From Reyranella sp. (lineage in GTDB: Bacteria > Pseudomonadota > Alphaproteobacteria > Reyranellales > Reyranellaceae), in the NCBI RefSeq assembly GCF_030651995.1, contig NZ_JAUSBN010000004.1, positions 1-64,000 on the forward strand: a DNA stretch of 64,000 nt, given 5' to 3'. The notes below the pieces were generated by a model. The model was not told the origin of the DNA. It saw only the letters and a program-made list of their open reading frames with translations, and made no database searches. The translations under genes and the position numbers were made by a program. Below, one piece after another: positions 7,451 through 31,708 of the stretch. Numbering within the stretch: position 1 is the stretch's first letter; the number at the start of each line of letters is the position of its first letter.

Positions 7451-8089
7451 TCATAGCGCGGCCAAGGCTACACCCCTTCCAGGTGCAGCGCCGCTGTCCT
7501 TCTTCCTGCGGGCGGTCTTGGGGGAGACGCCCCACCAATTGATATCGACTCCGAGAGCCTTCTGGAGCGTCGCCCGAGACTCGTCATTCCTGGTAATTGG
7601 AAGCTCGACGAACTTCGGGTCATTGGCGAAGACAGTTCGGCACGCGTGATAGTGATTCTCCATCCAGATGCGCAGGTGCTCATCCTTCTTGCCATAGCCC
7701 GTCGGCAGGCCAACTATGTCGGCGTCGATAATGCACTGACGAAGGTCTGCCCAGCCATTGATGCTGGCGATATGGCCGGCGATATCCCTTGTATTCAGAA
7801 TGAAACAACATTCCGGATGAAAGCGGCGAATGGTAAGCAATAGCGCAATGTCGAGATTCGGCCAGAAATTCAAACCCGATGCGGGACGGCAAATGTCGGC
7901 CTGGGCGATCACGTCGTAGGCCTTGAGATCCAACAGAGGATCTTCACCCGCGAGATACCTCTTGTAGATCATCTTGCCGCAGAATCCCTCGGGGACTCGC
8001 CAGTGGGCCGACTTAAGCCCACTTTTGATACAGGCTTCATGAATAGTGGTCGTGCCACACTTCGGAAACCCGACGACAAAACCCTTCAT
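7451..8089 (-). CDS. sulfotransferase family protein
   Basis: 212 aa. It begins MKGFVVGFPKCGTTTIHEAC, where GFPKCGTTT is the PAPS 5'-phosphosulfate loop typical of sulfotransferases, and FILNTRDIAGHIASI fits the 3'-phosphate-binding RD...S motif. The length is short but normal for bacterial carbohydrate sulfotransferases. The start has AGGTGAAATA upstream. The GT61 gene on its right is transcribed towards it with a 75-base gap, so the two may form one unit and act on the same glycan. The C-terminal tail (TARRKKDSGAAPGRGVALAAL) looks disordered. The acceptor is unknown. Confidence 0.75.
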   Translation of the reverse strand: MKGFVVGFPKCGTTTIHEACIKSGLKSAHWRVPEGFCGKMIYKRYLAGEDPLLDLKAYDVIAQADICRPASGLNFWPNLDIALLLTIRRFHPECCFILNTRDIAGHIASINGWADLRQCIIDADIVGLPTGYGKKDEHLRIWMENHYHACRTVFANDPKFVELPITRNDESRATLQKALGVDINWWGVSPKTARRKKDSGAAPGRGVALAAL

Positions 8090-9900: not shown

Positions 9901-11799
9901 TTATACCTTCAAGGTCCCGCTGCCGCTCAGATGAGCGATCAACTGCTCCACCGATTCCTCGACCGACTGCGCGCCGGTCTCGAGGCGGATCTCGGGATTC
10001 TCCGGTGCTTCATAGGCCGAACTGATCCCGGTGAAATTGGGAATCTGGCCCTTGCGAGCCTTGCGATACAGCCCCTTCGGATCCCGGGATTCGCAAACCT
10101 CGAGCGGCGTATCCACGAAGATCTCCACGAATTCGCCATGACCGATCAGTTCCCTGGCCATCCGGCGCTCGCTGCGGAACGGAGAGATGAAGGACACGAT
10201 CACGATGAGCCCCGCATCGGCCATCAGCCGCGCCACCTCGGCGACCCTGCGTATGTTTTCCACGCGGTCCGCATCGGTGAATCCGAGATCGCGATTGAGG
10301 CCGTGCCGGACATTGTCGCCGTCCAGGATGTAGCTGTGACGCCCCAGGCTGAAGAGTCGCTTCTCGAGCGCGACCGCAATGGTGGACTTCCCCGACCCGG
10401 AGAGGCCCGTGAACCAGACCACGGCGGCTTTCTGCCCCTTCTGCAAAGCGCGGCTCTCGCGGCTGACGTCCAGCTCCTGCCAGTGAATGTTGGTGGCACG
10501 ACGCAGGGGAAAGTCGAGCAGTCCCATGCCGACGGTCTGGTTGGTGACCCGGTCAATGAGAATGAAGCCGCCGAGTTCGCGGCTTTCAGCGTACGGCGCG
10601 AACGGAATGGCCTTCGCCAAGGAGAGATTGCAGACGCCGATCTCGTTCAAGGCAAGCGTCTTGCCGGCGGTATGCTCGAGCGTGTTGATGTTGATCTTGT
10701 GCTTGAGCGACGTCACCGTCACTTCGGTCGTGGTCGCCCCGACCTTGATCAGATAGGTGCGGCCCGGAAGCATCTCTTCGGGCGCCATCCAGAGCAGCCG
10801 CGCGACGATCTGGTCCGCGATCGGCACGGGATGCTGGTGGTCGCAGACCAGATCGCCGCGACTGACATCGATGTCCCGATCGAGGACGAGCGTGACGGCC
10901 TGTCCGGAAATCGCCGCCGGAAGGTTACCGTCCGCGGTGACGATCTGCGTTACAATCGCCTCCTGCTCCGACGGCAGGACCTTCACGCGGTCGTCCTGCC
11001 GGATCGTTCCGCTGACGATCGTGCCGGCATAGCCGCGAAAATCCGCATTCGGACGGTTCACCCACTGAACCGGCATCCGGAACGGCCGCTTCTCTTCCTG
11101 GGGAGCGAACTCGACCGTCTCCAGGTAGGGCAGCAACGCGGGGCCGTGATACCAGGGCATGTGCGGGCTGGGCGCGACGACATTGTCGCCGAGCAGCGCC
11201 GAAATGGGAATGCAGGCGACGTCTTCGATGCCCAGCTGCTTGGCGAATGCGATGTACTTCGCGGTATAGGCCGCGAAAACGGCCTGATCGTAACCCACGA
11301 GGTCCATCTTGTTGACGGCCAGCACCAGCTTCTTGATGCCGAGCATCGAACAGATGTAGGTGTGCCGCCGGGTCTGCGTCAGCAGCTCCCGGCTGCGATG
11401 GACGTCGCCCAGGATGATCGCCAGGTCGGCCGTCGACGCGCCGGTCGCCATGTTGCGCGTGTATTGCTCGTGACCCGGCGTGTCGGCGACGATGAACTTG
11501 CGCTTGTCGGTCGCAAAGAAGCGATAGGCCACATCGATGGTGATGCCCTGCTCGCGCTCCGCAGCCAGGCCGTCGACGAGAAGCGCGAAATCGAGTTCAC
11601 CTCCCTGGGTGCCGACCTTCGCGCTCTCCGTCTTGAGGCTCGCCAACTGGTCCTCGAAGAGCATCTTGCCTTCGTAGAGAAGTCGGCCAATCAGGGTCGA
11701 CTTGCCGTCGTCGACGCTTCCGCAGGTGATGAAGCGAAGAAGTTCCTTGTGCTCTTGCTGGCGCAGATATGCTTCCAGGCGCTCTTCCGAACCATCCAT
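9901..11799 (-). CDS. cysNC: bifunctional sulfate adenylyltransferase subunit 1 / adenylylsulfate kinase (CysNC, NodQ type)
   Basis: 632 aa. The N-terminal about 430 residues form an EF-Tu-like GTPase: [10 protein letters not shown]-loop, [11 protein letters not shown] switch, [11 protein letters not shown] and NKMD. The C-terminal about 170 residues are APS kinase with GLSGSGKST near residue 460, [10 protein letters not shown] and the [10 protein letters not shown] substrate segment. With CysD it makes APS from sulfate and ATP using GTP, then phosphorylates APS to PAPS, the donor for sulfotransferases. The fused form is normal in rhizobia (NodQ). It overlaps the cysD stop (TAATG), so translation is coupled. 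With three sulfotransferases nearby, this copy probably supplies PAPS for polysaccharide sulfation, not only for cysteine synthesis. Confidence 0.96.
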
Positions 11800-12713
11800 T
11801 AGAAATAGCCTTCCTGCTTCTTCTTCTCCATCGACCCTTCGCCATCGCGATCGATGACCCGTCCGTGCCTCTCCGAATGCTTGGCGCGGAACATCTCCTC
11901 GAGGATCGCCGGCAATGTGGTCGCCTCACTCTCGATGGCGCCGGTCAGCGGATAGCATCCGAGAGTGCGGAAGCGCACCAGCTTCATTTCAGGCTTCTCG
12001 CCCGGCTGCAGCGGCATCCGTTCATCATCGACCATGATCAGGTTTCCGTCGCGCTCTACGACCGGCCTGTCCTTGGCGAAATACAGGGGCACGATCGGGA
12101 TCTTCTCCTGATGGATGTATTGCCAGATGTCGAGTTCCGTCCAGTTCGAGAGCGGGAAGACCCGGATGCTCTCTCCCTTGCGCTTGCGTGTATTGAAGAG
12201 ATTCCACGGCTCGGGTCTCTGGTTCTTCGGGTCCCAGCGGTGGTGCTCGCTGCGGAAAGAGAAGACCCGTTCCTTGGCGCGCGACTTCTCTTCGTCGCGG
12301 CGCGCACCGCCGAATGCCGCATCGAAGCCGTGCAAATCGAGGGCCTGCTTCAATCCCTGCGTCTTCATGACATCGGTATGGATCGCCGATCCATGCGTGA
12401 AGGGATTTATGCCCCGCTCGACCCCTTCGGGATTTATGTGGACGATGAGCTTCAGCCCCAGTTCGGCCGTAATGCGGTCGCGGAACGCGATCATTTCCCG
12501 GAACTTCCAGGTGGTATCGATGTGCATCACGGGAAAGGGCGGCTTGGCCGGATAGAATGCCTTCATCGCGAGATGAAGCATCACAGACGAGTCCTTGCCG
12601 ATCGAGTAAAGCATGACGGGATTTTCGCACTCCGCCACGACCTCGCGCATGATGTAGATGCTTTCAGCCTCCAGGCGCTGAAGGTGACTTAGACGATCGG
12701 TAACAGTGAGCAA
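11799..12713 (-). CDS. cysD: sulfate adenylyltransferase subunit 2
   Basis: ATP sulfurylase small subunit of the PP-loop (adenosine nucleotide alpha-hydrolase) fold. [20 protein letters not shown] is the pyrophosphate loop, and [15 protein letters not shown] and [14 protein letters not shown] are family signatures; it ends in KKKQEGYF as most CysD do. The track ORF begins at 12866, but family homology starts at the [16 protein letters not shown] segment, and a TTG at 12713 follows a GAGG-containing site, giving a normal 304 aa. A start further out would add 51 residues of unlikely sequence. The gene is first of a two-gene unit with cysNC and is divergent from the KpsT-like gene. A second cysD copy exists at 39095. 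Confidence 0.93.
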
Positions 12714-12920
12714 ATTTCCGTTCCTCTGCTTGGAGACATTTCGGGGCGCCTCGCACTTCGTTTGCTCGACGGCGGCACGCAGCATTCTGCTACTCGCCAT
12801 CCGATGAAGGCCTTCCCCGCGTGACCTCTGGTGAAATTTTGGATGCGTGCATTCGCTGGTGCCCATAGAATACCGGCTAGCCCAAGCGAATCCAAGAACC
12901 CCCCTTCTTTACGGCGCCAG

Positions 12921-13646
12921 TTGACGATTAATTTATACTCCGTCTCGAAGGTGATCGGACATAGGCGCTTTCAGCGCACGATTGCCCGGGACGTGACGTG
13001 GACGATCGAGCCCCGCTCGAAGTACGTCATTCTCAGCCATCAGCAGGCTGCCCTGTCGGTTTTCGTGAATATCATCGCGGGCCTTTCGATACCAAGCGAA
13101 GGATGGGTCAAACCCGAAGGCAAGATCTCGCCGCCGGGAGGATTTCTCAGATATTCCAAGGGCGGAACGCCGCCAGAGCTCATTAAGCTTCTCGCGCCTC
13201 TTTATCGATTCGACGCCGAACAGGTCATCGATTTCGTAGCGGCCACCGTTCAGTATGATCGCCTGCTCCGCACGCCGACGGGCCAGCTTCCCATCGCACT
13301 CAGGCGCGAACTGAACCTGGCTCTAACCTTTGCCATCCCTTGCGATCATTACTTCTTCGTAGGTATGCCCACCGGCGGCCGCTCCCAGTTTCGCAAGCTC
13401 TGTCAACAGGCACTGGCCCGCCGAAGCGAAGAAGCGGCCGTGGTGGTCGGAGCTGGCTCAGATCGAGTCGCCAGGTCACTGGGGCCGGATGCCAAGGCTG
13501 CCATTCTATACCGTGGCAACTTCACGCTTTATCAGCGGCTGGATGACGCTCTCGCGGTATTCGAACGACTGGAGCCAGAATCGGCTATCCCGAACGAAGC
13601 GCTGGAGGATGAGAACTACGAGGACGACGTAGATCTCGTTATCTGA
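12921..13646 (+). CDS. KpsT-like ABC ATPase homologue with all ATPase motifs lost
   Basis: The protein aligns by eye along its whole length with capsule-export ATPases of the KpsT type: INLYSVSKVIGH at the start, a strand/loop/helix where Walker A should be, NIIAGLSIPSEGWVKPEGKI, and AILYRGNFTLYQRLDDALAVF at the end. The Walker A position reads SHQQAALS instead of GxxGxGKS, the LSGGQ-like signature position reads LPIALRREL, and the Walker B/Glu position (after DHYFFVG) has no acidic pair. It should not hydrolyse ATP. The acidic tail (EDENYEDDVDLVI) is extra. The start is uncertain: TTG 12921, which gives a family-like N-terminus, versus GTG 12831 or ATG 12843. KpsM- and KpsE-like partners lie at 18.4-20.9 kb, and no intact KpsT is in the window. 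Confidence 0.7.
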   Translation: MTINLYSVSKVIGHRRFQRTIARDVTWTIEPRSKYVILSHQQAALSVFVNIIAGLSIPSEGWVKPEGKISPPGGFLRYSKGGTPPELIKLLAPLYRFDAEQVIDFVAATVQYDRLLRTPTGQLPIALRRELNLALTFAIPCDHYFFVGMPTGGRSQFRKLCQQALARRSEEAAVVVGAGSDRVARSLGPDAKAAILYRGNFTLYQRLDDALAVFERLEPESAIPNEALEDENYEDDVDLVI

Positions 13647-13800: not shown

Positions 13801-14433
13801 TCAGCTCTGCGACGAAGCAGCCTGCGCCTCGGATGCGGCCGCCGCTTGCTTCGCCTTTTTCCCCTTCTTCTTTCCCACCTTCTCGGTATTCACAGCACGA
13901 AGACCGCGTCCCAAGGGGGCCATTCGTTTCAACGCAGCACTCAACGTGCGGGCCTTCATCATACCGCCCAGAACCGACTTGAGTTCGCCGTTGATGGCCT
14001 CCAACTTGGCCTTGCCTGCGTCCGTGACCTTAATCACTTTCCCGGCCTTGGCCCCTTGGGACTCCGCCTCGGTTGTTTGCCCGACCGAAATCAGTCCGCT
14101 CTGCGTGAGCGAACCGGTGATTTGTGAAACGCGCTGAACCGGAACGCCGAGATTCCGACTCATCAACTTGATGGTCGCGCCCTCCTGCCTCGCCAACATG
14201 CCCAGCGCCACCCACTCGCCAAGCCCCAGGCCGGCTTCTCTCAGGGGCTTCAGTTGACCAAAACCGACCAGCAGTCGGCTCATGCTGGCAACCAGGCGAC
14301 CGAAGTCATCGACGTTGATCTCTTCCGCGGGAGCTGCGGCGGCAGCCTTCTCGGCAGGCGCCGCGTCCGCGTTCTGCCCGCCAGGATTCGCCACTGCCTC
14401 GGGCTTGTCCTTGCTTTCCTTCTTTATAGCCAT
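13801..14433 (-). CDS. MarR-like winged-helix regulator
   Basis: 210 aa from the ATG at 14433, which follows GGAGGG; the track start at 14463 is less likely. After an Ala/Glu/Lys-rich N-terminal tail of about 45 residues comes a MarR-type core: helix LVASMSRLLVGFGQLKPLRE, LGLGEWVALGMLARQEGA, the recognition region MSRNLGVPVQRVSQITGSLT, then a wing with KVIKVTDAGKAKLEAING. The C-terminus is very basic (KKKGKKAKQ). It is clearly paralogous to the regulator at 15202, with the same EW-ALxxLA and NLGVxxQR spacing. It lies downstream of the basic protein gene at 14523 on the same strand. Target unknown; polysaccharide control is a guess from position. Confidence 0.75.
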   Translation of the reverse strand: MAIKKESKDKPEAVANPGGQNADAAPAEKAAAAAPAEEINVDDFGRLVASMSRLLVGFGQLKPLREAGLGLGEWVALGMLARQEGATIKLMSRNLGVPVQRVSQITGSLTQSGLISVGQTTEAESQGAKAGKVIKVTDAGKAKLEAINGELKSVLGGMMKARTLSAALKRMAPLGRGLRAVNTEKVGKKKGKKAKQAAAASEAQAASSQS

Positions 14434-14522
14434 AAAGGTCCCTCCAATCGCCCAAACTCGCATACAGATACTAAAGCCGCTTGTCCATATTGGTCAATCT
14501 CCCGTCTCGCCGGGCGACCAGA

Positions 14523-15201: not shown

Positions 15202-15747
15202 ATGCGAGCGGCTGACGCGCAGGCGTCCCATGACCCGATCGACATTCTAGACCTGGCAACGCTGGTGGTGGCCGCAAGCCGGCTGATCGGCGGTTTGGCG
15301 AGCCTTCCTCTGTTCAAGAACGCCCGCGTAAGCCTGACCGAATGGCTGGCCTTGTCGGTCCTCGCCGACAAGGAGGGTGTGAGCAACAAAATCCTCGCAC
15401 GGAGCCTGGGTGTAACCGGACAGCGCGCAAACCAGCTGTGCACATCGTTGAGCGAAGCCAAGCTGATATCGATCACTCACGCCGAGGACGACAGCCGAAG
15501 GAACGTGATTCGCATCACGGACAGCGGAAAGAAGCAGCTCGGAAGTCTCAACACCCAGTTGCAGGGGCTTTTTACAGAGGCCTTGCGGGGGAAACGACGC
15601 CCCCTGACAATGGCAAGCAAGCAGATGCGCCTCATGCTGAGAATCGTCCAGGATGGGACTCCGGAGTTGGCGGCCAAGCGAACCAAGAGAAGAGAAAAGA
15701 AGAAGGCGGAAATGGATAGGCCAGACGATGCACTCAGCAAGGAATGA
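15202..15747 (+). CDS. MarR-like winged-helix regulator
   Basis: 181 aa. Dimer helix LATLVVAASRLIGGLASLPL, then VSLTEWLALSVLADKEGVSN, recognition region LARSLGVTGQRANQLCTSL, and a wing EDDSRRNVIRITDSGKKQL complete a MarR-type core, followed by a basic C-terminal tail (KRTKRREKKKAEM). It is a paralogue of the protein encoded at 13801-14433 but runs the opposite way, with a 170-base divergent region between it and the basic-protein gene. A pair of related regulators could cross-regulate. It is followed after about 120 bases by the GT61/sulfotransferase pair on the same strand, which is a plausible target. The ligand is unknown. Confidence 0.75.
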   Translation: MRAADAQASHDPIDILDLATLVVAASRLIGGLASLPLFKNARVSLTEWLALSVLADKEGVSNKILARSLGVTGQRANQLCTSLSEAKLISITHAEDDSRRNVIRITDSGKKQLGSLNTQLQGLFTEALRGKRRPLTMASKQMRLMLRIVQDGTPELAAKRTKRREKKKAEMDRPDDALSKE

Positions 15748-15866: not shown

Positions 15867-17012
15867 GTGAGTCCCAGTGACACATTGCCGGCTGACGTCT
15901 TGTCTCTGTCGAATTCCGCGAGAAACAAAGTCGGCGTCTTCGAAGTTCAGAAGGGGGTCTTCCTCGAGGTATTGGAGACCCAGAAGTTCAAGACACATCG
16001 GCATTTTCGCGCTTCCTTGCCGGAATCGAAAGGGATCGAGCCGGGCTTCGACTCGGGGCCGGTGTACGTCGTCTACGCCGAGGACACTCACGTCGACATC
16101 CAGGCGGGTCTCACGTTGATCGACGGCAATCCGGTGCGGGAAACCGCCGTCGTGCCGAAGCTCGTGACGACCTATCAACGTGCGTCCGCAGAGGATTTGG
16201 CGGCAGCGCCGTTGATCGACGACGGACGCATCGTCCTGCCGCTAGCTTCCCAGCGTATGGGCAACTATTGCCGTTGGTGGCTCGACAGCGTCGCCAAAAT
16301 GTTCGTCTGCGGACGGTCAACCGTGCTCCGCGACAACCTGCGGGGAAGCAATCTGGATGTCGTGATTCCCGAACTGGGAACCCAGTTTCAGAAGCAGGTC
16401 GTCGACCTCTTCACCTGGCAGCCGTTCGTTGCCGACCACAGCAATCGCTTCCTGCGCGGCCGCTCGGTCAATTCCTCTGGCCTCACCTTTGGCGGCGGCC
16501 AGCGCATCGCCGGATTGGTTCGGGAAATGGCTTCCTTCCTCGACAATCTGATCATCCCTCCGGAACATCGAACGCGCGACAGGTCCGGCGAACTCCTCTA
16601 TGTCTCCCGCAACGAATCCTCCATGCGCCGTATTCTGAACGAGAACGACCTTCTGCCGGGGCTCAGGGACATGGGGTTCCGCATAATTTCGCCAGGAAAG
16701 CTCTCACTCACCGAACAGATCGAGGCCTTCCGCAACGCAAGGATCGTCCTTGCCGCCCATGGAGCGGGCCTCACGAACATCATTTTCTGTCGCCCGAATA
16801 CGACTTTGATCGAGATATTTCCGGAAGGCGGCGTGCATGGCTCGGCGTTTCTGCGCATCGCGAGCCAACTCAACTTCAACTACTACTACGCCGTCGGGCA
16901 GAAAGTTGAGAACAGGCAGTCGAAGAAGAACCCGAACAATTCCGATCTGATCCTCGACAAGTCGTCATTTCTCTCGTTTGTGCGCCGCGCCGTCGACGCC
17001 GATCTGAAGTAA
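15867..17012 (+). CDS. glycosyltransferase family 61 protein
   Basis: 381 aa from a GTG with GGGAGGGCC just upstream. The C-terminal half has RNARIVLAAHGAGLTNIIFC followed by TTLIEIFPEGG, the GT61 signature, preceded by LLYVSRNESSMRRILNEN; the N-terminal part carries QRMGNYCRWWLDSVAKMF, the family's N-terminal catalytic-region element. It is a second member of the family in the locus (the other at 8165) but only distantly similar outside the signature. Its stop overlaps the ATG of the sulfotransferase-like gene (TAATG), so the two products are probably made together and act on the same glycan. The donor sugar is unknown. Confidence 0.85.
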   Translation: MSPSDTLPADVLSLSNSARNKVGVFEVQKGVFLEVLETQKFKTHRHFRASLPESKGIEPGFDSGPVYVVYAEDTHVDIQAGLTLIDGNPVRETAVVPKLVTTYQRASAEDLAAAPLIDDGRIVLPLASQRMGNYCRWWLDSVAKMFVCGRSTVLRDNLRGSNLDVVIPELGTQFQKQVVDLFTWQPFVADHSNRFLRGRSVNSSGLTFGGGQRIAGLVREMASFLDNLIIPPEHRTRDRSGELLYVSRNESSMRRILNENDLLPGLRDMGFRIISPGKLSLTEQIEAFRNARIVLAAHGAGLTNIIFCRPNTTLIEIFPEGGVHGSAFLRIASQLNFNYYYAVGQKVENRQSKKNPNNSDLILDKSSFLSFVRRAVDADLK

Positions 17013-18418: not shown

Positions 18419-19240
18419 CTATCTGAATCGTCCCAGCGTCCTGATCGATCCGCGGTCAATGACCATGCCCAGAAACAAGCAAACCAGGACCCATGTAATC
18501 AGGTAGCCTTCGTCCAATGAGTTGTGGGGATAGCGCTCCCAGACGCCGAGACGAAACCACTCGACTGCATGCGACAGCGGATTGAGTATTGAGTAATACC
18601 GAAGGTGGGGGGCTTGAAGATCGACGATCTGCAGGATGCCTGACAGGAACACCAACCCTCTGGTCGCAAGCGAGTAGAAGAGGTTCCAAAATGGAACGTA
18701 GCGACTGATGGCCGTGTTCAGCATGCCCACGCCCATGGCCAGCATGATAAGCAGGAAAATCGGCACCGCACACACGGAAATGGAGATATTGCTTATTTCC
18801 CGGATGTCCGACAGCCACCACATGCCAAGAAAGAGCGCCACCATCATGGTAATCCAAATGGTGGAATTGACCAGAAGACTGGCGATGTAGGCATCCAAGG
18901 CGGACATCCCAGGCAACCGCTTGTCTGGACCGGTGCCGGCATTCCGAGTCCCGCTCGAGAGGCGTAAAAACATGAAGTAGGGAATGAACCCAGTTGCATA
19001 GAACAGGAACAGCGATGAGCCGTAGTTCGGCGTGTTCATCTTGAGCAGGCCGCGAATGGCATAAATCATCGACACGGCGACAAGCGGTTCGGCCAGCGCC
19101 CAAACCAGTCCCAGACTGTTTTTCCGGCTGAGGCCGAGGAAGATCTGACACATCGCCAGCCAGATCACGCGTCGCCACGCGGAGAGCGCCACGAACCAGT
19201 TGGAAATACCCAACCACAAACTGCTGGCCTGACCGATCAT
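18419..19240 (-). CDS. ABC-2 type polysaccharide export permease (KpsM-like)
   Basis: 273 aa from the ATG at 19240; the longer track ORF adds a non-hydrophobic leader. It has six hydrophobic segments in the ABC-2 permease pattern: the N-terminal amphipathic stretch before NSLGLVWALAEPLVAVSMIY, LFLFYATGFIPYFMFLRLSS, a cluster around IWITMMVALFLGMWWL, ISVCAVPIFLLIMLAMGVGM, FYSLATRGLVFLSGILQIV, and a C-terminal span followed by DRGSIRTLGRFR. The LNPLSHAVEWFRLG segment is typical of KpsM/Wzm. It would form the inner-membrane channel for capsule-like polysaccharide with a KpsT ATPase. The only KpsT homologue in the window is the degenerate one at 12921. Confidence 0.88.
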   Translation of the reverse strand: MIGQASSLWLGISNWFVALSAWRRVIWLAMCQIFLGLSRKNSLGLVWALAEPLVAVSMIYAIRGLLKMNTPNYGSSLFLFYATGFIPYFMFLRLSSGTRNAGTGPDKRLPGMSALDAYIASLLVNSTIWITMMVALFLGMWWLSDIREISNISISVCAVPIFLLIMLAMGVGMLNTAISRYVPFWNLFYSLATRGLVFLSGILQIVDLQAPHLRYYSILNPLSHAVEWFRLGVWERYPHNSLDEGYLITWVLVCLFLGMVIDRGSIRTLGRFR

Positions 19241-19309
19241 TTGAATCTCACCGCAATACTCGCGTAACCTCCCCCGCACTGGTGAATGACCACATGAGGC
19301 ACCTTCCAC

Positions 19310-19462: not shown

Positions 19463-20854
19463 TCAGGTCAGGTGTTCACCGATCGACCGGCTGAGCAGAA
19501 GGCTGATCGTCCACAACAGCAGGCTGGCGGCCGCCACGGTCAGCACGGCGATGAAGCGCCTGGGATGGGTCGACACCTGGGGCTCGGCCGGCTTGACGAA
19601 TGCCGTCACGTAGAGCCGCTTCGCCGCAGCGTTGGCGCGGGCCTGCTCCAGGGACTGCATTGTCGACGTCAGCATGTTCTGCGCAAACAGGCGCTCGAGT
19701 TCCAACTGCTCGAATCGACCGACGATCTTCGAAATCGACGAGTCCCCCGACTGCTTGGCTTTGGAAATCTGCGCCTCGACCTCCTTCAACTGCTCCTCGG
19801 TCGCCTTGAGCTTCATCTGCTGCGTTTGAAACTGCTGTGAGTTCGTGTTGAGGCCCTGCTTCCTCAGCATTGCCATTTCGGTCTGAATCATGGCCATGGA
19901 ACTGCGCAGTGTCGCTGCCACCGTGGCATTCGACGTCACCAGGTTGCTCATGGGATCGATCACGCCCGACTGATCCCGGAATGCCGCCAACTCCCCCAGG
20001 ACGGACCTCAGCCGATCTTCGGCCCGTTTGACCTCGACCTCCGCATACTGAACGGCTTCGCGCTGCGGACGCTGCACAGTCTCGTTGATCAGGTCTTCTG
20101 CCAGCGACAACAGCGTCTTCGCGATCAAAAAAGCGTCCTCGGGCGTGAATGCCCGCACCTCTGCGGCCGACGACCCCTGAATGGTGTCGTACTCGACCTT
20201 GGTCATGATCTTCCAATACCTGGCGAAGCGCTCCAACGAAGCGTCGTCGGGCAAACGCGACCAGACGTCGATGAACGGCCGGGAATAGCGCGATGAAATG
20301 TCGATCCTGCTCTGAAGATCCTGCACCGCCTGACGGCTGAGCATGTACTCCACGACCATGTAATTCTCGATCGGGCTCGTCGAGGCGGTGACGCCGACCA
20401 TCGCCGTCAGCGCATCGGAAGCCGACGACGTGCTGGTCATCGTGCTGATGTCCCGGACCGTGAATTTGAAGCTGGCCACGAATTGGTCGGTTGCGTAGGC
20501 GAAGTAGTAGACGCCGGCGATCAGCGTAGGCAGCACCACACAGAGCAGGAAGGAAACAATACCGCCCCACCGACGCTTCAAGGAGCGTCTCGGCAGTTCA
20601 GGCAATGGTATGTCGACCGTGGTGTCCACGGCATCGGCCCGGCCCGTTGGACCAACGGGCGGCGTCCGCGCCTCTTCGGGGCTCAGCAACCCGGCAGGAG
20701 CCCCATCCCGCCGGTCCACGCTTCCGGCGCCCGCCGACCGATCGTGGGCCCCGCCAGCAGGGGTCCCGCCCCTCTGCCTGACCTCCTGCTCCCCGCCATC
20801 AGAATTGATCGCCTCGAGCAGCGAAAGGTGCTTTCCGGATTTTGGGTTCGCCAT
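19463..20854 (-). CDS. capsule export inner-membrane protein, KpsE/polysaccharide co-polymerase type
   Basis: 463 aa from the ATG at 20854 (GGGAG four bases upstream). An N-terminal 90-residue Pro/Gly/Arg-rich cytoplasmic region precedes the first membrane helix (GGIVSFLLCVVLPTLIAGVY). A large periplasmic part with long coiled-coil helices follows (EVEVKRAEDRLRSVLGELAA and QQMKLKATEEQLKEVEAQIS), and then a second membrane helix near the end (FIAVLTVAAASLLLWTISLL) preceded by the proline-rich KPAEPQVSTHPRR. This two-helix hairpin plus coiled coil is the KpsE/CtrB family pattern, which bridges the ABC exporter to the outer-membrane channel. It is followed by the KpsM-like permease. No KpsD/Wza outer-membrane partner is in the window. 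Confidence 0.88.
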   Translation of the reverse strand: MANPKSGKHLSLLEAINSDGGEQEVRQRGGTPAGGAHDRSAGAGSVDRRDGAPAGLLSPEEARTPPVGPTGRADAVDTTVDIPLPELPRRSLKRRWGGIVSFLLCVVLPTLIAGVYYFAYATDQFVASFKFTVRDISTMTSTSSASDALTAMVGVTASTSPIENYMVVEYMLSRQAVQDLQSRIDISSRYSRPFIDVWSRLPDDASLERFARYWKIMTKVEYDTIQGSSAAEVRAFTPEDAFLIAKTLLSLAEDLINETVQRPQREAVQYAEVEVKRAEDRLRSVLGELAAFRDQSGVIDPMSNLVTSNATVAATLRSSMAMIQTEMAMLRKQGLNTNSQQFQTQQMKLKATEEQLKEVEAQISKAKQSGDSSISKIVGRFEQLELERLFAQNMLTSTMQSLEQARANAAAKRLYVTAFVKPAEPQVSTHPRRFIAVLTVAAASLLLWTISLLLSRSIGEHLT

Positions 20855-20900
20855 CAAGCTCCCGACCGGTTGAAATGATGCGGCTATGTCCTTGTATAGA

Positions 20901-20963: not shown

Positions 20964-22052
20964 CTAGCCCCCCGCGAACTGCTGGAGAATCCGCAATTCC
21001 GACAAGGCCGCCTTTGTCACAGTGAATTCAGCGCTGGTCTCGAGGGCGGCTTGGCGCAATTCCGCACGGGCAGCGGGCGTCATCGTGATGAAGGTATCGA
21101 TCGCCGACAAAACCTCCTGGTCGCTGCGCGTATCGACGACAAAGGCATTCCGGCCATGGACCGCGTACTCGCTGGTCCCGCCCAGCACGGGAACGATGGG
21201 AATGCATCCGCAAGCCATTCCCTCCAGACCGGTTCGCCCGAACGCCTGATAGTCGGACAGGTCGAGAAACAGGTCACTGGATCGAAGCAGGTCTGGCACC
21301 TGTGAGCGCTTCAGGACACCCCAGTTCTTGACGTTGGCCGGCAGCACGATGCCCGCAGCTTCGAGTTCCTCGTCCGAGGCGCCGAACACCTGCATGGACA
21401 CGTCGCTGTACTTCCCGGCGATCGCCCGCATGATCCGCACCGTCCGCTTTGGCGCGCGCCGCGGGGTCGCCGGTCGCAGCATGGCCACGACCGAGAGAGG
21501 CGAGCCGGCGCGACGGAGATTTGGATAGTGAACCTCATGGTCGATCGACGGGATGACCTTGAGGACCTTGATGCCGTGATTGGCGTAGACGATGTCACAC
21601 AGCCAGTTCGTCTTGGCGAACAACATGGCATCCTTCAACGCCGTGTAGGACTGGCCGGCCTTGACCCAACGCTCGCTGTTGGCAGGATAGAACAACGGCT
21701 CGTAATCCTGCACGTAATAGGCAAATTTGGGGGCCGCCTTGGGCTCGCCCTTCATCATCTCCGCACGCGCATTGGCGACATCGAATACCGATGCATTGGT
21801 CGTGGCGACTGCGATCTGGCACGAGGCCAAATGCTCGGCGAGCCCCGCACCATCGGCATAGGAGAGAACCGGGATCTTGAGTGCCTCGAGTTCGGGATAG
21901 CTTGCGAGAAACTTGCTGTAATTGGGCACGTTGACCGCCAACCGCACGTCGACACCCAACCTCGCCAGCCCCATGGCCTCCTGGGCGACGGAATTGGATC
22001 CACCTCCGCCGCCGCCGGAGGGCAGCACGAACATGATACTGACGGCTTCCAT
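20964..22052 (-). CDS. glycosyltransferase family 4-type (GT-B)
   Basis: 362 aa. The N-terminus MFVLPSGGGGGGSNSVAQEA is a Gly-rich GT-B nucleotide-proximal loop; the C-terminal domain contains SSDLFLDLSDYQAFGRTGLE followed by GMACGCIPIVPVLGGTSEYA, the E(x7)E-type donor-binding region of GT4 enzymes. It would add a sugar from a nucleotide donor in the cytoplasm. It is 48 bases downstream of the giant GT2 gene on the same strand, so both likely form one unit (25085 to 20964) building the same glycan. The linkage formed cannot be told. Confidence 0.85.
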   Translation of the reverse strand: MEAVSIMFVLPSGGGGGGSNSVAQEAMGLARLGVDVRLAVNVPNYSKFLASYPELEALKIPVLSYADGAGLAEHLASCQIAVATTNASVFDVANARAEMMKGEPKAAPKFAYYVQDYEPLFYPANSERWVKAGQSYTALKDAMLFAKTNWLCDIVYANHGIKVLKVIPSIDHEVHYPNLRRAGSPLSVVAMLRPATPRRAPKRTVRIMRAIAGKYSDVSMQVFGASDEELEAAGIVLPANVKNWGVLKRSQVPDLLRSSDLFLDLSDYQAFGRTGLEGMACGCIPIVPVLGGTSEYAVHGRNAFVVDTRSDQEVLSAIDTFITMTPAARAELRQAALETSAEFTVTKAALSELRILQQFAGG

Positions 22053-22100: not shown

Positions 22101-25085
22101 TCAGGTGACGGCCGTGCCGGTGGAAGCCAACCGCTCGTGCTTCCCGGCCGACGGCGCCGCCGCTTGCGGGGCTTCGCCGCGCAACCGCCGACGCAACCGC
22201 TTGCGCAGCTCCGTCAACGATGTCAGTTCCGCCATCTCGCGCTGAACCGCCTTCATATCGACCTCTGGATGCTTGAGCGCCAGCTGGGCTGTCCCCCGCT
22301 TGGAAAGTTCAGCCCGACGCGCACTTCCAAAGCTCGCGGATTTGACGTGGTAAACATAGACGTGGTCGGCGACGACCAGCGTGTAGCCAGCCTTCCTCAC
22401 ACGAAGGCACAAGTCGTTTTCCTCCCCATAGCCCATGGGGAACGCAACTTCGTCGAGGTATCCGACCTGCTCGATCACCTCTCGCCTCATGAGCGTACAA
22501 AAGCCATTGAGCAGGGTCGCTTCGGGAAACTGCCTGGGCGACAGGGTGTTGACCAGCCGCGACACATCCTCAGGCCGGACTCCCTCCGGCAACGGATTGC
22601 TGCTCCAACCGCCCTTCACGTCATGCAGGTCCGGCACCGATTGCCACGAGGCCGCATTCGAAACCGGTCCGATCATCGCCGCCTTGGGGTGGGCTTCGAC
22701 GGCCTCGAACATTCCTTCCAGCCAGCCTGGCGTGACGATCGTGTCACTGTTCAGCAACACGACCCATTCGGCGGTGGAACGGCTCATGCCGATGTTCGCA
22801 GATTTCGTGTAACCGAGATTCGTCTCGTTCTCGATCAGTCGAATCCAGGGCTTGCCTCGTACATACGACCGCAGTTGCAGACGTGTCGTATCGCCCGACT
22901 TGTCGTCGATGATCGTGACCGTGTGCGGGACTGACGTATTCCGGGCGATCGACTCGAGGCAGTCCAGAGTCTCCTCGACGGCATTGTAAACGCAAATGAC
23001 GATGTCGACCGAGTGCTTCGAGTCGGGCAACCATGCCCAGCTGGTCGCCCCGCCCTCTTCAGCGGCAGAACGAGGGGCCATTGCCTGGATGGGCTGCGTC
23101 GACTGCCAGTGCTCGAGGCCCTTCACGAGGGCCAGCTGCCCGGCAATGTTGGGGTCCTCCATCCTGACTTCATGAGACTGGGACCCGGCATTCTCCGCCA
23201 CGGCTGTTCCGCTGCCCAGATAAACGTCGCCGATGGCAATATCGACAACGCCGGCGAACTCGAAGATCAACACAAGCCCGTGGCCGACGTCGCGCAACGT
23301 TTCCCTGGCTTTCGTCTCCAGAAGCTGGCGATGGTCGTTCCGAAGCGGCAGCGTATGGTACTCGCCGATACGACTGATCCTGACGTTCTTGCGGATCGTG
23401 AACAGGCGCTTGACGTCGAAGTCGGGCCTGTCAGGAGCAATCCGTCGACGCTCGGCGACGATGATCTGCTGGATGACAAGAGCTTCCCGCTTGCCGGCCG
23501 ACCCTGCCGGCTCGGCCGCGCGCGCGCAGAAGCCGAGCTGGCGTGCCGACGCTGCCAGGATCTGGAGCGAGTCCAGCCCCGCCTCGAGACGCAAGTAGGG
23601 TCCCGCGATCTCGCCATGGAGCGCCAGGGCGAGAACGCTGGAATGGTCACGACCATCCCTCAATCCGCGCGGCGCGATTTCGGTGAGCCTCGCCTCGACG
23701 GCGGGGCACGGCGACTTGCACGCCAGGAGCCATTCATCCGTGATCTCGGTGCGCCGTGTCGCCAAGGCGAGCCTGAGCTTGCCCGACCAATGCTCGAAAC
23801 GTCCGTTTACGACGGCGTTCGAGTCGAGCGGCACCTGGCGCGGCTTGAACTCCTCGGCGATCGCCTCGCCTGCGGCGCCGGCGGCGACAAAGGCCAACTG
23901 AACGGTGCTGCTCTGTCCGTCGCGAACGATCAGGGCCACTCCCTGCTGCCCCGCCTCGAGTTTCGCAGGCAGTCGCAGCCGTGCCGTGCGATAGAGCCAC
24001 TTCGACCAAAGTATGACGGTTGTCCGCGCTCCCGGGATGATCTTGCCCGAGGAATTGGTGAGGGCAACCTCCACTTCCGTGCGGGCGTCAGCTCGCCCGA
24101 CGACCACGACGTCCACGAATTGCTGCGCAGAAAATCCTTCGATCCGTTGGGCAATGGAAACAACGTGGTTTGCCGGCGACTTGCCGAAAACCACCGCCAG
24201 ACTGGGCGTCGCAAACGGTCGCTCTCGCGTCGGTGACTCACGCCTGATCGTCACGCCAGGCGGTGCGGTCACGCTCCAGTGGGCCGGCCTGTTCTCCGTC
24301 CATTTCTCGAATCCCGCATTGAGCAGTACATTGGAGACGGCCGGGCTGACCGGCGACGACGGTGCAGCCGCAGGCTCGATCTTGACGCTCGTGACCTCGG
24401 TGGTGCTGGCGGATACGACCAGTGGCGGCTCGACAACCCCATGGCCCTCATCGTGCACTCCGTCGGTGCCAGCCGCCACGGGGGCGGTGCGACGGAAGCC
24501 CGTAACCAATTTCGCGGCGAAGCTCTTGGCCGAGGCCAGAACCCTGGTCGCAACAACAGGATCCTCGATGCGACAAAATTCGATTTCGACCGTGCCCGCA
24601 CCGGAGAACCGCAGCGAGAGATAGCGTTGTCCCGGTGGAGACGTGCCACTTGGCCGCAGCGGGACAGAGAACTCGTGCCAGTCACGGTTCAAAGGAACGG
24701 CACCGATCAATCGGCGGTCCACTTTCCGCTGCTCGTCATTGCCATTGAACAAGGCAATCGAATCCAGCTGCAGTTTCGCGCCGTCGCCCTGCACTCCCCT
24801 CAGGCGAACCCTTACGACTTTGCTGCCGCCCTCTATCGCTCCTTGGTCCAATGGATGCCAAAATCGCACTTGCTCGGGCGGCGTGGTGAGCAGCAACCGA
24901 ACGCCCCTCTCCGATCGCGGCTCCAGAGGCTCGAGTGCAATCTGCATCGGCTGACCGCGGCTCACATGCGTTAGGAACCACTCCCTGCAGAAGCGGAACC
25001 CGCTTCTCGGGTTCACAACGCTTGCAGATACCCAGTTCTCGAACGTCGAGTTGAAAAGATGCCCGCCGCCGGCGTCGCCCAGCAT
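22101..25085 (-). CDS. large GT2 glycosyltransferase with three N-terminal carbohydrate-binding-like modules
   Basis: 994 aa. Three similar beta-rich modules open with related motifs, FNSTFENW (about residue 11), LNAGFEKW (about 255) and VNGRFEHW (about 428), each resembling jelly-roll carbohydrate-binding domains. From about residue 690 comes a GT2 domain: HSVDIVICVYNAVEETLDCL, VTIIDDKSGDTTRLQL, NLGYTKSANIGMSRSTAEWV, LLNSDTIVTPGWLEG (the DxD-like metal site) and GYGEENDLCLRVRKAGYTL. The C-terminus is basic (LRKRLRRRLRGE). Binding modules may tether the enzyme to its growing polymer. Such fusions occur in flagellin and surface-glycan loci. It is first in a unit with the GT4 gene. Confidence 0.85.
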   Translation of the reverse strand: MLGDAGGGHLFNSTFENWVSASVVNPRSGFRFCREWFLTHVSRGQPMQIALEPLEPRSERGVRLLLTTPPEQVRFWHPLDQGAIEGGSKVVRVRLRGVQGDGAKLQLDSIALFNGNDEQRKVDRRLIGAVPLNRDWHEFSVPLRPSGTSPPGQRYLSLRFSGAGTVEIEFCRIEDPVVATRVLASAKSFAAKLVTGFRRTAPVAAGTDGVHDEGHGVVEPPLVVSASTTEVTSVKIEPAAAPSSPVSPAVSNVLLNAGFEKWTENRPAHWSVTAPPGVTIRRESPTRERPFATPSLAVVFGKSPANHVVSIAQRIEGFSAQQFVDVVVVGRADARTEVEVALTNSSGKIIPGARTTVILWSKWLYRTARLRLPAKLEAGQQGVALIVRDGQSSTVQLAFVAAGAAGEAIAEEFKPRQVPLDSNAVVNGRFEHWSGKLRLALATRRTEITDEWLLACKSPCPAVEARLTEIAPRGLRDGRDHSSVLALALHGEIAGPYLRLEAGLDSLQILAASARQLGFCARAAEPAGSAGKREALVIQQIIVAERRRIAPDRPDFDVKRLFTIRKNVRISRIGEYHTLPLRNDHRQLLETKARETLRDVGHGLVLIFEFAGVVDIAIGDVYLGSGTAVAENAGSQSHEVRMEDPNIAGQLALVKGLEHWQSTQPIQAMAPRSAAEEGGATSWAWLPDSKHSVDIVICVYNAVEETLDCLESIARNTSVPHTVTIIDDKSGDTTRLQLRSYVRGKPWIRLIENETNLGYTKSANIGMSRSTAEWVVLLNSDTIVTPGWLEGMFEAVEAHPKAAMIGPVSNAASWQSVPDLHDVKGGWSSNPLPEGVRPEDVSRLVNTLSPRQFPEATLLNGFCTLMRREVIEQVGYLDEVAFPMGYGEENDLCLRVRKAGYTLVVADHVYVYHVKSASFGSARRAELSKRGTAQLALKHPEVDMKAVQREMAELTSLTELRKRLRRRLRGEAPQAAAPSAGKHERLASTGTAVT

Positions 25086-29635: not shown

Positions 29636-31708
<2,073 letters not shown>

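Follow-up and report, generated by a model that had tools for sequence, protein, structure and literature searches.

What does a KpsT-like protein do once it has lost every motif of an ATPase? ABC exporters are defined by ATP-driven nucleotide-binding domains (NBDs), and the KpsT family works as a homodimer. In the 64,000 nucleotides of Reyranella sp. contig NZ_JAUSBN010000004.1 that were analysed (positions 1 to 64,000, hereafter called the window), an open reading frame of 241 amino acids codes for a protein, hereafter called KpsT*, which the original prediction described as a KpsT homologue with the Walker A, signature and Walker B motifs erased and with the frame and overall KpsT pattern retained. 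A new structural or regulatory job was suggested for it, such as a non-hydrolysing partner of the exporter or a switch for the sulfation genes beside it.

A KpsT homologue without ATPase motifs

The single sequence of KpsT* matched PDB KpsT 8tsh (E = 1.2e-4) and, as its top curated family, the NCBIfam family VexC of the Vi capsule exporter (NF011724, E = 1.4e-6), in which it scores far below the cut-off (27.8 of 313 bits). A profile built from KpsT* relatives matched KpsT 8tsi with E = 1.2e-62. Pfam ABC_tran (PF00005) gave no match even at E ≤ 1 and its gathering score was not reached, which fits the loss of the motifs. In the AlphaFold2 model (pLDDT 91.3, 34-sequence alignment) KpsT* is predicted to have a RecA-like core and a helical subdomain. 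The first-ranked Foldseek match of this model was KpsT 8tsh_A (TM 0.73/0.81), with further KpsT chains and chains of TagH/TarH and Wzt ranked below it, the matches being ABC NBDs. Structure prediction thus returned an ABC ATPase fold closest to KpsT rather than an unrelated one, and since the closest relatives by both sequence and fold are KpsT proteins, KpsT* belongs to the KpsT family by descent. Chance resemblance is ruled out by the profile match together with the fold match.

The best profile and fold match is the KpsT of the KpsMT-KpsE system of Schlegelella thermodepolymerans (8tsh/8tsi; Nature 2024, PMC11041684), in which the motifs are intact and Glu151 is needed for secretion, whereas KpsT* has no motif, a two-residue insertion and an acidic tail (Table 1). 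Where canonical KpsT proteins have GxNGAGKST, KpsT* has SHQQAALS, without the P-loop Lys; the signature YSSGMRAR is replaced by LPIALRR and the Walker B sequence xYLVDEx by HYFFVGM. Beyond the three motifs named originally, the H-loop His is replaced by Gly (GAGS) and the A-loop Tyr by Ile, so that Walker A, signature, Walker B and H-loop are all missing. The searches and the motif alignment thus bear out the original description of both the homology and the losses, and the open frame is confirmed. The TTG start is shared with the orthologue L021:10001-10720, whose earliest possible start past an in-frame stop is the same TTG, and a wrongly assigned start was therefore rejected.

Table 1 Features of the KpsT* locus, in window coordinates
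Feature	Position	Strand	Remarks
Possible sulfotransferase	7451..8089	-	PF17784, E = 7.8e-4, below cut-off; weak match
CysN/CysC fusion (GTPase and APS kinase)	9901..11799	-	PF00009, PF01583
CysD, sulfate adenylyltransferase subunit	11799..12866	-	PF01507; divergent neighbour of kpsT*
KpsT*, KpsT homologue devoid of ATPase motifs	12921..13646	+	241 aa, TTG start
Former Walker A, SHQQAALS	13035..13058	+	Alignment to canonical KpsT
Former ABC signature, LPIALRREL	13287..13313	+	Lineage pattern LPxxxR in place of YSSGMR
Former Walker B, HYFFVGM	13347..13367	+	Asp and catalytic Glu lost
Former H-loop, GAGS	13449..13460	+	Switch His lost
C-terminal acidic tail	13572..13643	+	Past the canonical KpsT end; throughout the motif-less subclade; its end predicted disordered
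GT61 glycosyltransferase	15867..17012	+	PF04577; same order in the orthologous locus (L083)
KpsM*, proposed partner permease (ABC-2, matching lineage)	18419..19309	-	Likely start ATG at 19240; PF01061, 3.9e-8
KpsE-type co-polymerase (BexC/CtrB/KpsE family)	19463..20857	-	TIGR01010, 3.6e-60, below family cut-off
GT1-like glycosyltransferase	20964..22052	-	
Second glycosyltransferase, 994 aa, with GT2 domain	22101..25085	-	

Selection and graded motif loss in Reyranella

The only relative from a scan of genome contigs was an orthologue in Reyranella sp. GW715_bin.16 (L021, which appears to be the contig G065:C41), which has 70.7 % amino acid identity with KpsT* and lacks the same motifs. The two loci share the gene order cysNC-cysD, kpsT*, MarR and GT61, followed further on by kpsM, kpsE and a glycosyltransferase gene. 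For this one close pair the dN/dS of KpsT* was 0.15 by the NG86 method (bootstrap 95 % CI 0.09-0.22) and 0.18 by YN00, and the NG86 values for the neighbouring KpsM and KpsE were 0.17 and 0.18, respectively. The pair differs at 195 nucleotides with the frame still open; in neutral simulations with as many differences the frame stayed open in 1.2 % of the runs and amino acid identity never exceeded 0.60. The kpsT* gene is under purifying selection, similar in strength to that on its neighbours KpsM and KpsE and exerted after the loss of the motifs. The dN/dS proposed as a check is thus far from the neutral value on which the original prediction would have foundered, and the orthologue in an independent assembly, the dN/dS and the neutral simulation together reject a pseudogene or an assembly error.

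The former ATP-site codons evolved faster than the other codons (pN 0.27 vs 0.15, permutation p = 0.017), which indicates relatively relaxed constraint on the pocket, with the remainder of the protein held. Between the window and G065, 88 % of the Q-loop and helical-entry region, 86 % of the N-terminal and 81 % of the C-terminal region were conserved, vs 52 % of the former ATP site, the KpsM contact surface having been assigned by region and not from coordinates. Of the six pairs compared, window-G065 and window-G068 showed this contrast clearly; in the other four it did not reach significance.

Nine clear KpsT* proteins were found in a search of 65 Reyranella genomes, several of the assemblies being drafts (in the window, G065, G068, G078, G004, G015, G086, G061 and G084), with a tenth, fragmentary and resembling that of G061, in G033. 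The signature, mostly replaced by LPxxxR, and the H-loop His are lost in all nine, and the catalytic Glu in eight. G061 alone keeps the Walker B Asp-Glu; G084, G015 and G086 keep only the Asp. Four members (G015, G086, G061 and G084) retain Walker A, which has gone from the remaining five. In a tree from which the motif columns had been removed, so that the grouping is not an artefact of these columns, the nine are monophyletic (support 90/44, or 99/94 without G084). G061, with its Walker A, stands together with G004 in this tree with weak support (83/39), and the KpsM* tree places it (93/90) between G004 and the subclade of the window; Walker A would accordingly have been lost at least twice if it was not regained. 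The proposed path begins with the signature and the H-loop, continues mostly with the catalytic Glu and ends with Walker A, lost at least twice.

Motif loss is not common noise in the family, since the motifs are intact in the canonical KpsT proteins sampled across the phylum; outside Reyranella, loss was seen in this sample only in G107 and G233 and partly in G308. G107 (L086) and G233 (L085) belong to another family of the same class, and the only KpsT found there is partly degenerate, with the signature LPAST, an intact Walker A and neither the catalytic Glu nor the H-loop His. It adjoins KpsE, and in L085 also KpsM, and apparently represents an independent partial loss. In G015 (L017:279-2120, - strand) and G086 (L079:9465-11234, + strand) KpsT* is extended at its C-terminus by about 370 residues with a TPR-like look.

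The permease KpsM* and the gene neighbourhood

KpsM* and KpsT* are confined to the same 10 of the 65 Reyranella genomes, fragmentary in G033, and neither occurs in the other 55. The KpsM* proteins of these genomes form a clade of their own (99/98), with branching nearly the same as in the KpsT* tree. As the genomes are related and the genes usually neighbours, the co-occurrence does not amount to ten independent events. The model of the window KpsM* (pLDDT 76) is weaker than that of KpsT*, and its best match was KpsM 8tsh_C (TM 0.76/0.79). As in the S. thermodepolymerans system, the partner of KpsT* would thus be a KpsM-fold permease, with a KpsE-type gene in the locus. Each of the four loci with a retained Walker A has kpsT* and kpsM* on one strand. 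In the motif-less loci with both genes on one contig (the window, G065, G078 and G004) the two are on opposite strands, and co-expression there is consequently not assured; in G068 the genes are on different contigs. A conserved protein with an apparent signal peptide is encoded between kpsM* and kpsT* in G015, G086 and G084 (L017:7838-9016, L079:7884-9095 and L082:5215-6351, respectively), and the L017 copy, which was examined, had no Pfam match.

The genome to which the window belongs also contains, on contig C1 (G000:C1), a separate canonical kpsM-kpsT-kpsE set, so that the intact kpsT for which a search had been proposed is present, with its own KpsM and KpsE. Most of the genomes with KpsT* likewise have a canonical set elsewhere; in G078 and G084, with assemblies about 91 % complete, no canonical KpsT was found at the threshold that detects the copies of the others. 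Another transporter ATPase close to kpsT* was considered and rejected, as the window holds no other transporter NBD and its only further ABC protein is an ABC-F fragment.

The classical group 2 capsule system has KpsC and KpsS and is anchored by a Kdo-lipid. These starter enzymes (PF05159) were found in none of the 10 Reyranella genomes, with a positive E. coli control, which indicates that the system is not of this type. Two other components of group 2 systems were present, namely a KpsE-type co-polymerase (the TIGR01010 match below cut-off) and the outer-membrane Poly_export protein (PF02563), the latter in all 10 genomes, with three copies in G000, none of them within the window.

The sulfate activation genes nearby suggest that the exported polymer is sulfated. 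Only three loci, those of the window, G065 and G068, have the cysD-cysNC pair next to kpsT*, and the other six KpsT* loci examined lack it; the conserved link of KpsT* is with KpsM and not with the sulfation genes. Two MarR-like winged-helix genes (13801-14463, - strand, and 15202-15747, + strand) flank kpsT*, and relatives of these are present in the G065, G068 and G078 loci. Further along the window, an in-frame chimera (29636-31432, - strand) joins an ABC-F N-terminal part (residues 1 to about 380, 97 % to G065:C15) to the C-terminal portion of an SQD1-like epimerase (94 %, G065:C41; there the epimerase gene is in one cluster with kpsM*). The genome of the window yielded neither protein as a separate full copy, and the junction, near 30.29 kb, is either a misassembly or a real rearrangement.

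Possible role of KpsT* in polysaccharide export

The reading we favour, and consider rather probable, is that KpsT* serves a second, divergent KpsM-KpsE polysaccharide exporter of Reyranella as its cognate, non-hydrolysing, NBD-shaped subunit. KpsT* would still dock with KpsM* at its cytoplasmic face, in the manner of KpsT and KpsM, and would neither bind nor hydrolyse ATP. It could stabilise or gate the KpsM* dimer within the KpsE cage, and it may also hold glycosyltransferases or sulfotransferases at the pore. The polymer, probably sulfated, would be moved through KpsM* by a drive other than this NBD, for example another machine or the growth of the chain. Secretion by canonical KpsMTE is abolished by one Walker B change, E151Q (PMC11041684), and a version without the motor must therefore be powered in some other way. 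Wzm-Wzt, the O-antigen exporter, is a relative among the type V polysaccharide exporters; with no nucleotide bound, the channel through its permease is already continuous (PMC6379404), so that a motor-less channel is conceivable but unproven; Wzt is a working ATPase, unlike the predicted state of KpsT*. We regard as possible, and put forward tentatively, the wider proposal of an ABC-type polysaccharide exporter which uses no ATP at its own NBDs, in which KpsM* and KpsE form a gated channel, the NBD homologue is purely structural and export is driven by chain growth or another machine. If so, the surviving relatives record the stepwise loss of a motor.

In this lineage KpsM, KpsE and an NBD-shaped protein are under purifying selection with every catalytic motif of the latter discarded and with intermediates still alive. 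It is thus a natural series in which to ask what NBDs do besides hydrolysis, and whether a KpsM-type channel can export polymer in its absence. A limited search of the open-access literature found no KpsT-type subunit described as lacking all of the motifs.

Among the other explanations, KpsT* might pair with a canonical KpsT encoded elsewhere to form an asymmetric NBD dimer on KpsM*. Asymmetric pairs are known among ABC exporters such as TM287/288, TAP and CFTR (reviewed in PMC7756269), where an NBD deficient in catalytic residues is kept by selection, as KpsT* is, and 8 of the 10 genomes with KpsT* have a second KpsT/Wzt-type ATPase. In those exporters, however, one site stays complete, whereas Walker A, signature, Walker B and H-loop have all gone from KpsT*; as Walker A and the signature are both missing, a heterodimer with KpsT would have no complete composite site. 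The canonical KpsT moreover has its own adjacent KpsM and KpsE, and it was not found in G078 and G084, whose assemblies are about 91 % complete, and such pairing appears distinctly unlikely. Still less probable is the use of ATP at a remodelled, non-canonical site, as might be proposed from the four relatives which keep Walker A without signature and H-loop, and from the conservation of the LPxxxR replacement in most of the lineage. In the motif-less subclade of the window, none of the regions compared is less conserved than the former Walker A, with a pairwise identity of 0.13 vs 0.77 in canonical KpsT, and the P-loop Lys and the Walker B Asp and Glu are gone.

It is very improbable that KpsT* no longer belongs to the exporter and instead controls or organises the sulfation genes or enzymes next to it (cysD, cysNC, sulfotransferase). 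The divergent arrangement of kpsT* and cysD, seen in the window, G065 and G068, agrees with such a role, but the cysD-cysNC pair is missing from the six other loci examined, whereas KpsM* is in every genome with KpsT*, and KpsT* has no DNA-binding or signalling domain, its predicted fold being that of an NBD. Of the two roles originally suggested, that of a non-hydrolysing exporter partner is thus strengthened by the co-occurrence and parallel branching with KpsM*, and that of a switch for sulfation genes is disfavoured. It is also unlikely, though less so than these alternatives, that the whole KpsM*-KpsT*-KpsE set no longer transports and either has another job, e.g. as a membrane scaffold for glycan synthesis, or consists of slowly decaying relics. 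Of the substrate-canyon residues of StKpsM, several have changed in KpsM*, with Leu, Tyr or Phe in place of Arg35 in the four-genome motif-less subclade; these residues are poorly kept in canonical Reyranella KpsM as well, and are therefore uninformative as a test of transport competence. In G033 (L099, G033:C666) KpsM* is split by frame changes beside the KpsT* fragment, which may reflect a pseudogene or a sequencing error, the draft being 75 % complete. The KpsM fold is predicted to be kept by KpsM*, and purifying selection is about equal on KpsT*, KpsM and KpsE.
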